From: Thermococcus barossii | Lineage (GTDB): Archaea; Methanobacteriota_B; Thermococci; Thermococcales; Thermococcaceae | Assembly (NCBI RefSeq): GCF_002214465.1 | Contig: NZ_CP015101.1 | Span: 689,013 to 753,012, forward strand | Length of the DNA: 64,000 bases | Direction: 5' to 3' | Part shown: positions 12,410 through 56,495 of the stretch, in pieces | Numbering within the stretch: position 1 is the stretch's first letter | Layout of the letters: every line of letters starts with the position of its first letter | The notes under the pieces: generated by a model | What the model saw: the letters and a program-made list of their open reading frames with translations, nothing else | What the model was told of the DNA's origin: nothing | Database searches by the model: none | Translations under genes and position numbers: made by a program

Positions 12410-12423
12410 TTAGGTCAGTCTAA
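12410..12423. promoter_or_regulatory. Weak DtxR-like palindrome upstream of lipoprotein operon
   Basis: TTAGGTCAGTCTAA pairs four of five outer bases on each arm and resembles the TTAGG...CCTAA palindrome found at the feo promoter in this window. It lies about 60 bases upstream of the TTG start at 12350. The match is imperfect and could be chance. Confidence 0.22.
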
Positions 12424-12511
12424 TTATGTTAAGTTCAAACTTGAAGCCAGAAAATGCCGAAGATTTTTCTGCATATCAATTTCAAATGTACAATCGAAAA
12501 GCTGCAGATGG

Positions 12512-13393: not shown

Positions 13394-13472
13394 GGGTGAG
13401 ACTGGGGTTTAAGCGTTAAAACGTTTTTGGCATTCAAACCGATAAACTTTTATATACCCAGCGCGCTAGTTA

Positions 13473-38466: not shown

Positions 38467-38615
38467 AGTCAATGCACCTCCGAAATTCAATCAGTTGTAT
38501 TCTCCTCAATCCTTTAAATACCTTTCCAAAGTTTTAACACGAGTGCCCAACGTTGCCCCATCTTCTTTAACGCATCAGAACTCAATGATTTCTGATCTCG
38601 AACCCCTGAGTTTTG

Positions 38616-38629
38616 TTAGGCTCACCAAA
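38616..38629. promoter_or_regulatory. DtxR-type operator candidate 1, upstream of feo TATA box
   Basis: TTAGGCTCACCAAA resembles the TTAGG...CCTAA palindrome recognised by DtxR/IdeR/MntR-family iron or manganese repressors; the right arm has one mismatch (CCAAA). It ends immediately before the TATA-like TTTTTAAG (38632-38639) of the feo operon. Occupation of this site would block TBP/TFB. Confidence 0.5.
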
Positions 38630-38664
38630 GCTTTTTAAGGTCATCGAGAGATTGGAATATCGAA

Positions 38665-38678
38665 TTAGGAGAGCCTAA
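38665..38678. promoter_or_regulatory. DtxR-type operator candidate 2, at feo start site
   Basis: TTAGG-AGAG-CCTAA, a perfect 5-bp inverted repeat around 4 bases, the classical DtxR-family palindrome. It overlaps the expected transcription start about 25 bases downstream of the TATA box (38632-38639) and lies 11 bases before the feoA start. Together with the site at 38616-38629 it brackets the promoter. Confidence 0.6.
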
Positions 38679-38689
38679 CGGTGATGCTC

Positions 38690-38917
38690 ATGATTGTACC
38701 TTTAAACAGCATGAGGCCCGGCGAGAGAGGGGTTGTGGTTAACATCCTGGGAGGTCCCAATGCCCGTGGAAAGCTTGTCTCGATGGGACTTAGCCCTGGT
38801 GCCACCGTTCAGGTGCTTGAGTCCCATCCTATGGGCCCTATAATAATCTCCGTCGGCGGCGTGAGGTTCGCCATAGGGAGGGGAATGGCCAGCAAAGTCA
38901 TGGTAAGAAAGCTGTGA
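38690..38917 (+). CDS. feoA: FeoA, ferrous iron transport accessory protein
   Basis: 75 aa, SH3-like small protein that supports FeoB, with GERGVVVNILGG near the start and LVSMGLSPGATVQVLE in the middle, as expected for FeoA. ATG 38690 follows GGTGAT at proper spacing; a GTG at 38681 is also in frame. First gene of the feo operon, 10 bases before FeoB. Confidence 0.93.
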   Translation: MIVPLNSMRPGERGVVVNILGGPNARGKLVSMGLSPGATVQVLESHPMGPIIISVGGVRFAIGRGMASKVMVRKL

Positions 38918-38927
38918 GGTGCCCGCT

Positions 38928-40904
38928 ATGATGAAGGTAGTGGCCCTGGCAGGGAATCCCAACGTCGGGAAGACCACCATCTTCAACTCACTCACTGGAA
39001 TGCGCCAGCACGTCGGAAACTGGCCCGGAGTCACCGTCGAGAAGAAGGAGGGGATACTCGAATACAATGGCCAGAAGTTTCTCGTGGTTGACCTTCCGGG
39101 GATATACTCCCTGACGGCCCATTCCATTGACGAACTTGTTGCCAGAGACTTCCTTCTTAAGGGAAGTGCCGATGTCGTTGTGAACGTCGTCGACGCGACA
39201 GCCCTCATGAGGAACCTATTCCTTACGATGGAAATACTTGAGATGGGTCTGGGGAACGTTATCATAGCCCTCAACAAAATCGACCTCGCAGAAAAGCGCG
39301 GCATTGAGATAAACGTCAGGAAGATGGAGGAGCTATTGGGAGTCCCCGTCGTCCCCCTGAACGCCAAGGAAGGCCTTGGCCTGGAGGAGCTCAAGGACAA
39401 GATATACAGAATGGCAAACGGCGAGATAAAAACCAATCCCACAGTTCCCACCTACGACCCCGAGGTCGAGAGGGAGATCAGGCACATAACAGAAGTTCTG
39501 GAGCACACAAAGCTCGCTGGGGAGTACAACCTCCGCTGGCTGGCGGTGAAGCTTCTCCAGAGAGACGACGGAGTGATAAAGCTCGTTCTCAGGCATCTTG
39601 GAAAGGAGAAGCTCGACGAAATCATGGGACACATAGCCGAGGTGGAGGAGCGCTACAAGAGGGCGATGGATCTGATAATAGCCAGCCAGAAGTACGAGTT
39701 CATAGACGGCCTCATGCACCGCTTTGTGAGGTATTCCCACGAGCAGGGAGAGACCTTCAGCGACCAGCTGGACAGGTTTCTCACACACCCCGTTTACGGC
39801 CTACTTGCCCTCTTCGGCGTGTTTTACCTCCTGTTCAAGTTTGTCTTTGCTCTCGGATTGCCAATGCAGGGACTGCTGGATGAGGCGTTTTCCGCCTTTG
39901 GCGAGTGGCTGGCGCCCCACATTGCCAACGAAACGCTTCGCGGTCTCTTAGTTGACGGTATCATTGCCGGTGTCGGGTCTGTTCTGAGCTTTTTCCCGCT
40001 GGTTTTCCTGCTGTTCTTGGCCATGTCCATCCTGGAAGACGTGGGTTATATGGCCAGAGCCGCGGTCGTCATGGAGCGCATCATGAGGAAGTTCGGCCTT
40101 CCGGGCAAGAGCTTCATTCCACTGGTGCTTGCCTTCGGCTGCAACGTTCCTGCAGTCATGGCGACAAGAACCCTTGATGAGGAGAGGGACAGGTTGATAA
40201 CGATGCTGGTCAACCCCCTCATACCGTGCAGCGCCAGGCTGAGTGTCATAAGCTTTCTGGCGGGGGCTTTCTTTGTGGAGAACCAGGCCTTGGTCGCGGT
40301 GAGCATATACGCGACGGCCATAATGCTGGCGCTACTAATGGCGTGGCTCTTCAGCCGCTTTGTGGTTAGAGGAGAGGAGAGCCCCTTCATAATAGAGCTA
40401 CCTGAGTACCTCATACCCTCGTGGAAGACGGTGACGTTACACTCATGGGAGAGGAGTAAGGAGTTCGTTAAGAAGGCCGGAACCATAATCCTGCTGGGTT
40501 CAGTTGTCATCTGGTACCTCAGCAACTATCCGGTTCCAATAGGCTCCGGCCAGAGCTATTCCGAGAAGATAGGCATGTTTTTCGAACCGTACATGAAGCT
40601 CATGGGGCTCGACTGGAAGGCGGCCGTAAGTCTTCTCTTTGGAATCATCGCCAAGGAGAACGTCATATCAACCTACGGGATAATCTACGGCAGCGTTGAC
40701 GAGATAGTCAACTCAATGTCAGCTCTCCAGGCCTTTGTGCTGGCCCTCGTCACGACCCTATACGTTCCCTGCATTGCCACCATAGGCGCTATAAGAGCGG
40801 AGAGCAACTGGAAGTGGGCCGCTTTCACTGTCGTCTACATGATAGGCCTCGCGAGCATCGTGGGAATACTCGTCTGGAACATAGGAACGGCACTGGGGTA
40901 CTGA
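38928..40904 (+). CDS. feoB: FeoB, ferrous iron transporter
   Basis: 658 aa. N-terminal G-protein domain with GNPNVGKTT (G1), VDLPGIYSL (G3) and NKIDL (G4), a helical insertion (about 170-265), and a C-terminal membrane part (about 290-655) with 8 or more helices. It imports Fe2+. ATG 38928 is chosen (GAGGT upstream); ATG 38931 is equally plausible. It begins 10 bases after feoA. The 3' end is followed 9 bases later by a four-Cys winged-helix protein. Confidence 0.95.
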   Translation: MMKVVALAGNPNVGKTTIFNSLTGMRQHVGNWPGVTVEKKEGILEYNGQKFLVVDLPGIYSLTAHSIDELVARDFLLKGSADVVVNVVDATALMRNLFLTMEILEMGLGNVIIALNKIDLAEKRGIEINVRKMEELLGVPVVPLNAKEGLGLEELKDKIYRMANGEIKTNPTVPTYDPEVEREIRHITEVLEHTKLAGEYNLRWLAVKLLQRDDGVIKLVLRHLGKEKLDEIMGHIAEVEERYKRAMDLIIASQKYEFIDGLMHRFVRYSHEQGETFSDQLDRFLTHPVYGLLALFGVFYLLFKFVFALGLPMQGLLDEAFSAFGEWLAPHIANETLRGLLVDGIIAGVGSVLSFFPLVFLLFLAMSILEDVGYMARAAVVMERIMRKFGLPGKSFIPLVLAFGCNVPAVMATRTLDEERDRLITMLVNPLIPCSARLSVISFLAGAFFVENQALVAVSIYATAIMLALLMAWLFSRFVVRGEESPFIIELPEYLIPSWKTVTLHSWERSKEFVKKAGTIILLGSVVIWYLSNYPVPIGSGQSYSEKIGMFFEPYMKLMGLDWKAAVSLLFGIIAKENVISTYGIIYGSVDEIVNSMSALQAFVLALVTTLYVPCIATIGAIRAESNWKWAAFTVVYMIGLASIVGILVWNIGTALGY

Positions 40905-40913
40905 GGTGTGAGG

Positions 40914-41168
40914 ATGCTGGAGAGAATACTTGAGCTCATAAAGGAAGGGAAGAGCATTGAAGAGATAGCCCGGGAGCTTTCACTCCCCCGCGAGGAAGTA
41001 GAGGGTGCCCTCAGCGTTCTGGAGAGCATGGGATACGTCGAGAAGGTGGAGCTTGGCAGTACTCAGTGCGAAAGCTGTCCACTGAAAAGCGTCTGCCCTG
41101 GTTCGTGCTTCAGATTCAAGGGAAAGGTGTACACGGTGACCGAATTCAGGATTGATGCACACAAATGA
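40914..41168 (+). CDS. FeoC-like winged-helix protein with four Cys
   Basis: 84 aa. An N-terminal winged helix-turn-helix (IEEIARELSLPREEVEGAL, about 15-33) is followed by CESCPLKSVCPGSC (about 51-64), a cluster of four Cys that could bind [4Fe-4S], as in bacterial FeoC. Position at the end of the feo operon, 9 bases after feoB, supports that role: an iron or oxygen sensor that tunes FeoB. ATG 40914 is preceded by GAGGTG. The sequence is not closely related to the enteric FeoC, so the name is given only as a likeness. Confidence 0.75.
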   Translation: MLERILELIKEGKSIEEIARELSLPREEVEGALSVLESMGYVEKVELGSTQCESCPLKSVCPGSCFRFKGKVYTVTEFRIDAHK

Positions 41169-56417: not shown

Positions 56418-56495
56418 GCCCCGGTGGTGTAGCCCGGTCAAACATGCGGGCCTTTCGAGCCCGCGCCCCGGGTTCAAATCCCGGCCGGGGCACCA
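56418..56495 (+). tRNA. tRNA-Glu (anticodon UUC), CCA encoded
   Basis: 75 nt plus encoded CCA. Acceptor stem GCCCCGG pairs with CCGGGGC, discriminator A; the anticodon stem CGGGC/GCCCG encloses loop CTTTCGA with anticodon TTC (Glu); T arm CCGGG-TTCAAAT-CCCGG is regular. The D arm is short. A TATA box lies upstream and a T-rich tract (56501-56516) downstream. The AT-rich DMT/GT-C-like gene pair begins 27 bases after the CCA on the opposite strand. Confidence 0.97.

Follow-up and report, generated by a model that had tools for sequence, protein, structure and literature searches.

Which regulators act on the feo promoter of Thermococcus barossii, and through which sequences? We analysed a window of 64,000 nucleotides (positions 689013-753012 of a 1.92-Mb single-contig genome) that holds a feo operon with both feoA and feoB, followed by a third small gene. 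A preliminary description of this DNA had placed two candidate operators of the DtxR type on either side of the feo core promoter and had expected them to give strong repression by iron. Both sequences are found where they had been placed, and their arrangement is conserved. We consider it highly likely that the feo promoter is controlled through these two operators by the DtxR-family metalloregulator of the genome, whose metal-bound form would shut feoAB off. In addition, there is a conserved box further upstream, which suggests that this promoter is also a target of a second factor. The features discussed below are collected in Table 1.

Table 1. Features of the feo locus (window positions) and two related promoter repeats (genome positions).
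Feature	Position	Strand	Basis or remark
Upstream box, weaker copy 2, TCAGAACT	38575..38582	+	Sequence; 22 bp 5' of main copy
Upstream box, main copy CTCGAACC, consensus TTCRAACY	38597..38604	+	Conservation
Site 1, predicted DtxR-type operator TTAGGCTCACCAAA, overlaps BRE	38616..38629	+	Sequence; relaxed pattern in family loci
BRE ACCAAA, within site 1	38624..38629	+	Predicted from place before TATA box
TATA box CTTTTTAAG	38631..38639	+	Sequence; conserved block
Predicted transcription start, approximate, near 38661	38660..38662	+	From T. kodakarensis median distances
Site 2, predicted perfect DtxR-type operator TTAGGAGAGCCTAA	38665..38678	+	Sequence; family conservation
Probable ribosome binding site GGTGA	38680..38684	+	Sequence; columns largely conserved
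feoA	38690..38917	+	Pfam FeoA E 6.8e-22; ATG at 38690
feoB	38919..40904	+	Pfam FeoB_N E 5.8e-65; TIGR00437 above cut-off
Operon gene 3, small winged-helix protein, four Cys, FeoC-like	40908..41168	+	Pfam FeoC 22.4 bits, cut-off 21
22-bp direct repeat of GGTTCGAA-like boxes	892078-892104		Brackets TATA box of peroxiredoxin gene
22-bp direct repeat of GGTTCGAA-like boxes	901929-901955	other strand	Brackets TATA box of ferritin gene

Median distances from the transcription start in T. kodakarensis are 23 bp for the TATA box and 33 bp for the BRE, as given in a passage of PMC4247193. If this rule holds here, site 1 extends from about -45 to -32, the BRE included, and site 2 occupies about +5 to +18. 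Site 1 ends one base 5' of the TATA box. That it ends just before this box had already been described; the position stands and can be refined, in that the last bases of the site, ACCAAA, occupy the place expected of the BRE. Site 2 had been taken to cover the expected start, and here the place is confirmed while the predicted start itself falls just 5' of the site. Both locations are such that a bound protein could block the core promoter, site 1 overlapping the putative BRE and site 2 lying 3' of the predicted start. We infer binding by DtxR, and with it the identity of the metal and the block to TFB and polymerase: on site 1 the protein would cover the BRE and keep TFB from binding, and on site 2 it would cover the first transcribed bases and block RNA polymerase. 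Metal-bound DtxR on both sites would switch feoAB off, and metal-free DtxR would leave. This model rests on the sites themselves, their conservation, the regulator gene, the site upstream of that gene, and other sites in the genome that are partly iron-related.

The consensus of DtxR-type operators is the inverted repeat TTAGG-N4-CCTAA, which site 2 matches perfectly and site 1 with one mismatch, both being conserved. In the 64-kb window, the perfect motif is found once, where 100 shuffles gave 0.01 on average, with 3 matches at up to one mismatch (1.65 expected) and 15 at up to two (22.6 expected). On these figures, site 1 by itself does not exceed chance in the window, and it is conservation over 91 feoA loci that places both sites beyond chance. 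The whole genome holds 9 perfect motifs versus 4 for a reversed control pattern, and 43 versus 52 at up to one mismatch; it is enriched for the perfect motif, without enrichment at one mismatch. When 61 genomes of the genus are pooled, there are 637 perfect motifs versus 137 matches to the control, and the motif exceeds the control in 59 of these genomes.

Conservation was assessed in 94 family genomes, of which 91 had a FeoA match and 3 had none; the best-matching locus per genome was taken, second feoA copies of some genomes lying outside this set of 91. Site 2 is perfect in 90 loci and has one mismatch (TTAGA) in the remaining one, L044. Its ten arm positions are almost invariant, and its four spacer positions occur in 27 combinations. 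Site 1 is present in 82 of the 91 loci, that is, in every locus of five genera, and a relaxed-pattern search found it in none of the nine loci of the sixth genus, g3, which is probably Pyrococcus. The patterns used, TTAG[GA]-N3-A[CA][CAT]AAA for site 1 and TTAG[GA]-N4-CCTAA for site 2, were both written after the rows had been seen, and as such matched all loci of the five dual-site genera without a failure. Compared with TTAGG-N4-CCTAA, 64 loci carry a site 1 with one mismatch and 18 one with two, the other 9 loci being those without it; the site is weaker in genus g4, with two mismatches in 11 of 12 loci. The right half of site 1 reads ACCAAA in 79 loci, ACAAAA in 2 and ACTAAA in 1, and the consensus half CCTAA (as ACCTAA) occurs in none of the 82; we infer that the BRE fixes the last bases of the site. 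The unusual detail of this promoter is that an operator merges with the BRE, an arrangement preserved in five of the six genera examined. The start of site 1 lies 47-52 bp 5' of that of site 2. Strict helical phasing was set aside as this range amounts to half a helical turn, and because the spacing varies to this extent the two sites probably act independently.

Some loci depart from the common gene arrangement. One genome (G002) has its feoA match in two pieces with an internal TGA, and the promoter sites are kept. In G003, G010, G011, G024, G026, G029, G034 and others there is a second feo locus, where two feoA-like matches stand in tandem, and G003 has perfect DtxR-type sites close to this second locus.

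The preliminary description presupposed a DtxR-family protein, and the genome indeed encodes one protein with the DtxR metal-binding domain (PF02742), at genome positions 93832-94275. It has 148 amino acids and two domains, both of the DtxR/MntR family and above their cut-offs, an N-terminal one for DNA binding (PF01325, 63 bits) and one for metal binding and dimerisation (PF02742, 68 bits), and relatives occur in 86 of the 94 family genomes. The third, C-terminal SH3-like domain of DtxR/IdeR was not among its Pfam matches, which besides the two domains comprise just overlapping MarR-type matches. The closest PDB and NCBIfam matches of the regulator are MntR, and the MntR and DtxR models of NCBIfam that were listed all fall below their cut-offs. 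Residues E12, E15, H81, C104, E107 and H108 align with D8, E11, H77, E99, E102 and H103 of MntR, which we take to be so numbered and to act as metal ligands in that protein; Cys104, at the position of MntR Glu99, presumably corresponds to Cys102 of DtxR. Directly 5' of the start of the regulator gene, at 93812-93825, lies the one-mismatch site TTTGGCCAACCTAA, through which the gene is perhaps autoregulated.

Of the remaining eight perfect sites, five are found at genes for a ZIP transporter, a NUBPL-type iron-transfer ATPase, a Nitro_FeMo-Co protein (its divergent neighbour encoding a Fer4/ParA protein), a peroxiredoxin of the AhpC/TSA family, and a radical SAM protein; several of these are iron or Fe-S genes. 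The others, 5' of a UbiA prenyltransferase gene, 5' of an AP endonuclease-like gene, and 76 bp 3' of a DUF134 gene, are not clearly at iron genes. Many one-mismatch sites of the genome lie inside genes. The case for DtxR is weakened to the extent that the other perfect sites are not all at iron genes and the one-mismatch set is not enriched. Among the one-mismatch sites, TTAGGAAAACCGAA, followed by a TATA-like stretch, lies between the ferritin gene and a divergent gene for a 204-aa protein; it may be operator-like and again fused to a BRE. Two more lie 5' of two genes whose products, as we take it, resemble Nitro_FeMo-Co proteins. Within the window, positions 12410-12441, between two ORFs, hold the one-mismatch site TTAGGTCAGTCTAA and then TTCAAACT 10 bases 3', and at 13433-13460 TTCAAACC stands shortly 5' of the TATA-like TTTATATA.

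Could site 2 be the sole DtxR operator, with the TTAG...ACCAAA of site 1 being a BRE joined to the site of another factor? In no locus is site 1 a perfect palindrome; it is degenerate in g4 and lacking in g3, beside a site 2 that is perfect in 90 of 91 loci, and one-mismatch sites of its kind are expected by chance in the window. However, every locus of the five genera (82 of 82) keeps TTAG, which a BRE does not need, at the correct spacing from the right arm, and in 47 of the 82 TTTTG directly precedes the site, extending it toward the DtxR consensus, which is 19 bp long. We regard a single operator as unlikely. It is hardly credible that site 2 serves instead as a hairpin of the 5' leader RNA that hides the ribosome binding site. 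UUAGG-N4-CCUAA is able to pair and lies directly 5' of GGUGA, but a five-pair stem would in our judgement be unstable at the temperatures of a hyperthermophile, 90 of 91 loci share the same arms with no covariation, the one variant (L044) breaks a pair, and site 1, being 5' of the TATA box, is not transcribed from the feo promoter. Because the arms are almost invariant and the spacer takes 27 forms, site 2 is better read as a protein-binding palindrome.

The remaining alternative concerns the metal, in that the regulator would sense manganese in the manner of MntR rather than iron. Its best PDB and NCBIfam matches speak for this, yet Cys104 replaces the Glu99 of MntR, presumably as Cys102 does in DtxR, none of the listed MntR and DtxR models reaches its cut-off, and several of the predicted targets are Fe and Fe-S genes. 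A passage in PMC12827226 calls the homologue TK0107 manganese-dependent; taking both sides into account we judge manganese sensing improbable. Sites 1 and 2 are retained as what they very probably are, to judge by sequence and conservation: DtxR operators, exerting control of a known kind.

Repression of feo by iron, in the sense of the preliminary description, is less certain, because PMC12827226 reports that both feo operons of T. kodakarensis, Tk0714-0716 and the second one, were up when 72 h had passed since 1 mM FeSO4 was added. According to the same paper, peroxiredoxin Tk0537 is also up at that time, and the DtxR homologue TK0107 may regulate iron acquisition. The joint rise of feo and Tk0537 is not predicted by DtxR repression alone. 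PF0851, a P. furiosus protein of the DtxR family, is autoregulated according to PMC6316755, and its 32 predicted target genes are enriched for riboflavin and RNA polymerase genes. In favour of the DtxR model of feo we count the possible role of TK0107 and the autoregulation of PF0851; the target prediction counts against it.

New here is a TTCRAACY box at a fixed distance from site 1, an element that the preliminary description does not contain. It starts at offset -19 (77 loci) or -18 (5 loci) from site 1, and, scored as the best of five neighbouring offsets, matches at 7 or more of 8 positions in all 82 dual-site loci and at 8 of 8 in 67. Among six control offsets, full matches occurred only at -60, in 7 loci, where third copies fall, and at none of the other five; scores of 7/8 occurred 0 to 12 times. 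Columns of the box carry up to 2.0 bits of information, those at 60 to 40 bp upstream at most about 0.6 bits. In 55 of 81 loci (1 of the 82 being left out) the main box is preceded, at 21-22 bp, by another RAACY copy, and a copy at 42-45 bp was scored 13 times. In genus g3, where site 1 is absent, a similar box is present: patterns adapted to its nine rows place it 17-19 bases 5' of a BRE-like hexamer in 9 of 9 loci, the corresponding gap in dual-site loci being mostly 19.

Known sources or binders of the box were considered and rejected. The T-arm of a tRNA could supply GGTTCGA, and no tRNA was found in the window other than the one at 56418-56495. The motifs of SurR and CopR do not match TTCRAACY. 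A sigma-70 promoter scan was set aside as not applicable to archaea. In its own genome the box is not enriched when searched with tolerance: TTCRAACY next to TTAGR at up to 2 mismatches gave 183 matches versus 206 for the control, and the tandem RAACY-N14-TTCRAACY at up to 1 mismatch gave 43 versus 56. GAACC with BRE/TATA at similar spacing gave 10 versus 1, the genes being mixed. Literature searches found nothing on TTCGAACC in archaea, and for GGTTCGAA in Thermococcus returned RNA papers only, with nothing on a regulator.

The strict pattern RAACC-N15-TNGAACC has 6 matches in the genome versus 1 for the control; by our reading of the ORFs, four lie in or at genes and two are intergenic, in the promoters of the peroxiredoxin and ferritin genes. 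The peroxiredoxin contains DFTPVCTTE, a motif that PMC7465337 ascribes to a Sulfolobus 1-Cys Prx6 protein. We read 27 of 30 peroxiredoxin loci and scored 26, L207 having no recognised start. The RAACC pair is exactly 22 bp apart in all 26, the own genome included, and TTCGAACC is exact in 23 of the 27. For ferritin, 15 of 80 loci were read (L217-L231), and in 7 of these 15 relatives two GGTTY-like boxes are separated by exactly 22 bp, GGTTCGATAGATAAACTTATAAGGTTCGAA being an example. One further locus (L221, ferritin 80% identical) has a degenerate form of the repeat, and the seven without it encode ferritins that are 56-61% identical; the ferritin of L227, positive for the repeat, is only 59% identical. 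The ferritin repeat is also overlapped by a frame of 246 codons, which has the same strand as ferritin and runs antisense to the divergent gene; we take this frame to be spurious. The same box with the same spacing at three promoters is hard to explain without a shared factor. This argument is weakened because looser patterns are not enriched genome-wide, and because the peroxiredoxin and ferritin matches were sought with the feo pattern, a choice made partly after the fact.

We put forward, with belief and doubt about evenly balanced, that feo is a two-regulator composite in which DtxR would be joined by an undescribed factor of the Thermococcaceae that binds 22-bp repeats of GGTTCGAA, activating feo and repressing the genes for the 1-Cys-type peroxiredoxin and ferritin, with the FeoC-like gene as candidate for its source. 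From its place 5' of the BRE at feo the factor would activate; where its boxes bracket the TATA box, at the peroxiredoxin and ferritin genes, it would repress. These opposite effects are proposed by analogy with CopR and TrmBL1. This direction of control is tentative, because the joint rise of feo and peroxiredoxin under iron load, if the same peroxiredoxin is meant, is at odds with a single state having opposite effects on the two. The candidate box binder, the FeoC-like product of the third feo gene, has relatives in 90 of 94 genomes. The window protein has CxxCPL-x3-CxGxC, as do all 12 relatives, out of the 90, that were aligned, the reading frame having been picked by requiring C..C. The protein matches PF09012 at 22.4 bits (cut-off 21, E 0.00014) and TrmB at 25.3 bits (cut-off 25.6), and no FeoC model of NCBIfam matched it. 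If the proposal is true, one factor would link iron uptake, iron storage and peroxide defence, in an archaeal iron and peroxide regulon open to test, and, assuming that the peroxiredoxin is Tk0537, it might help explain the joint rise of feo and Tk0537 under iron load in T. kodakarensis. The upstream box matters more than the DtxR part, which confirms a known kind of control.

The two-site feo arrangement was not found in the literature searched on archaeal DtxR and feo promoters; a 2015 study by Leyn and Rodionov, said to be a comparative treatment of archaeal DtxR regulons, lies outside this comparison. DtxR of Pyrococcus furiosus reportedly represses feoAB and binds its promoter (work of Zhu et al. 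in 2013), a pairing of DtxR-family repressor and feoAB promoter like the one proposed here. Unlike the dual-site feo here, all nine loci of g3, probably Pyrococcus, have one perfect site and no upstream site. MDR1 of Archaeoglobus fulgidus, a DtxR homologue, is likewise a repressor that works through several operators at a promoter for metal transport; it is said to block polymerase recruitment, and its operators to lie 3' of the TATA box (Bell et al., in 1999), whereas here one operator overlaps the BRE. Operators of corynebacterial DtxR and mycobacterial IdeR have the consensus TTAGGTTAGCCTAACCTAA and share the TTAGG-N4-CCTAA core with the feo sites, but the promoter here is of the archaeal TATA/BRE type and the regulator has 148 amino acids and no third domain. 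For the upstream box, the archaeal regulator TrmBL1 offers a precedent, as it activates from 5' of the BRE and represses at the TATA box. The P. furiosus DtxR work of 2013 is cited in passages of PMC12827226 and PMC8516115. According to PMC7830388, the motif of CopR, an Lrp-type regulator of P. furiosus, sits directly 5' of the BRE in promoters induced by copper. The paper describes CopR as an activator when TBP/TFB are in place and as a repressor of copR, and it names iron transporters, ferritin and antioxidant enzymes as part of the copper response. The CopR motif TTNNCAWWWTGNNAA is unlike TTCRAACY, and its position 5' of the BRE is like that of the box at feo.
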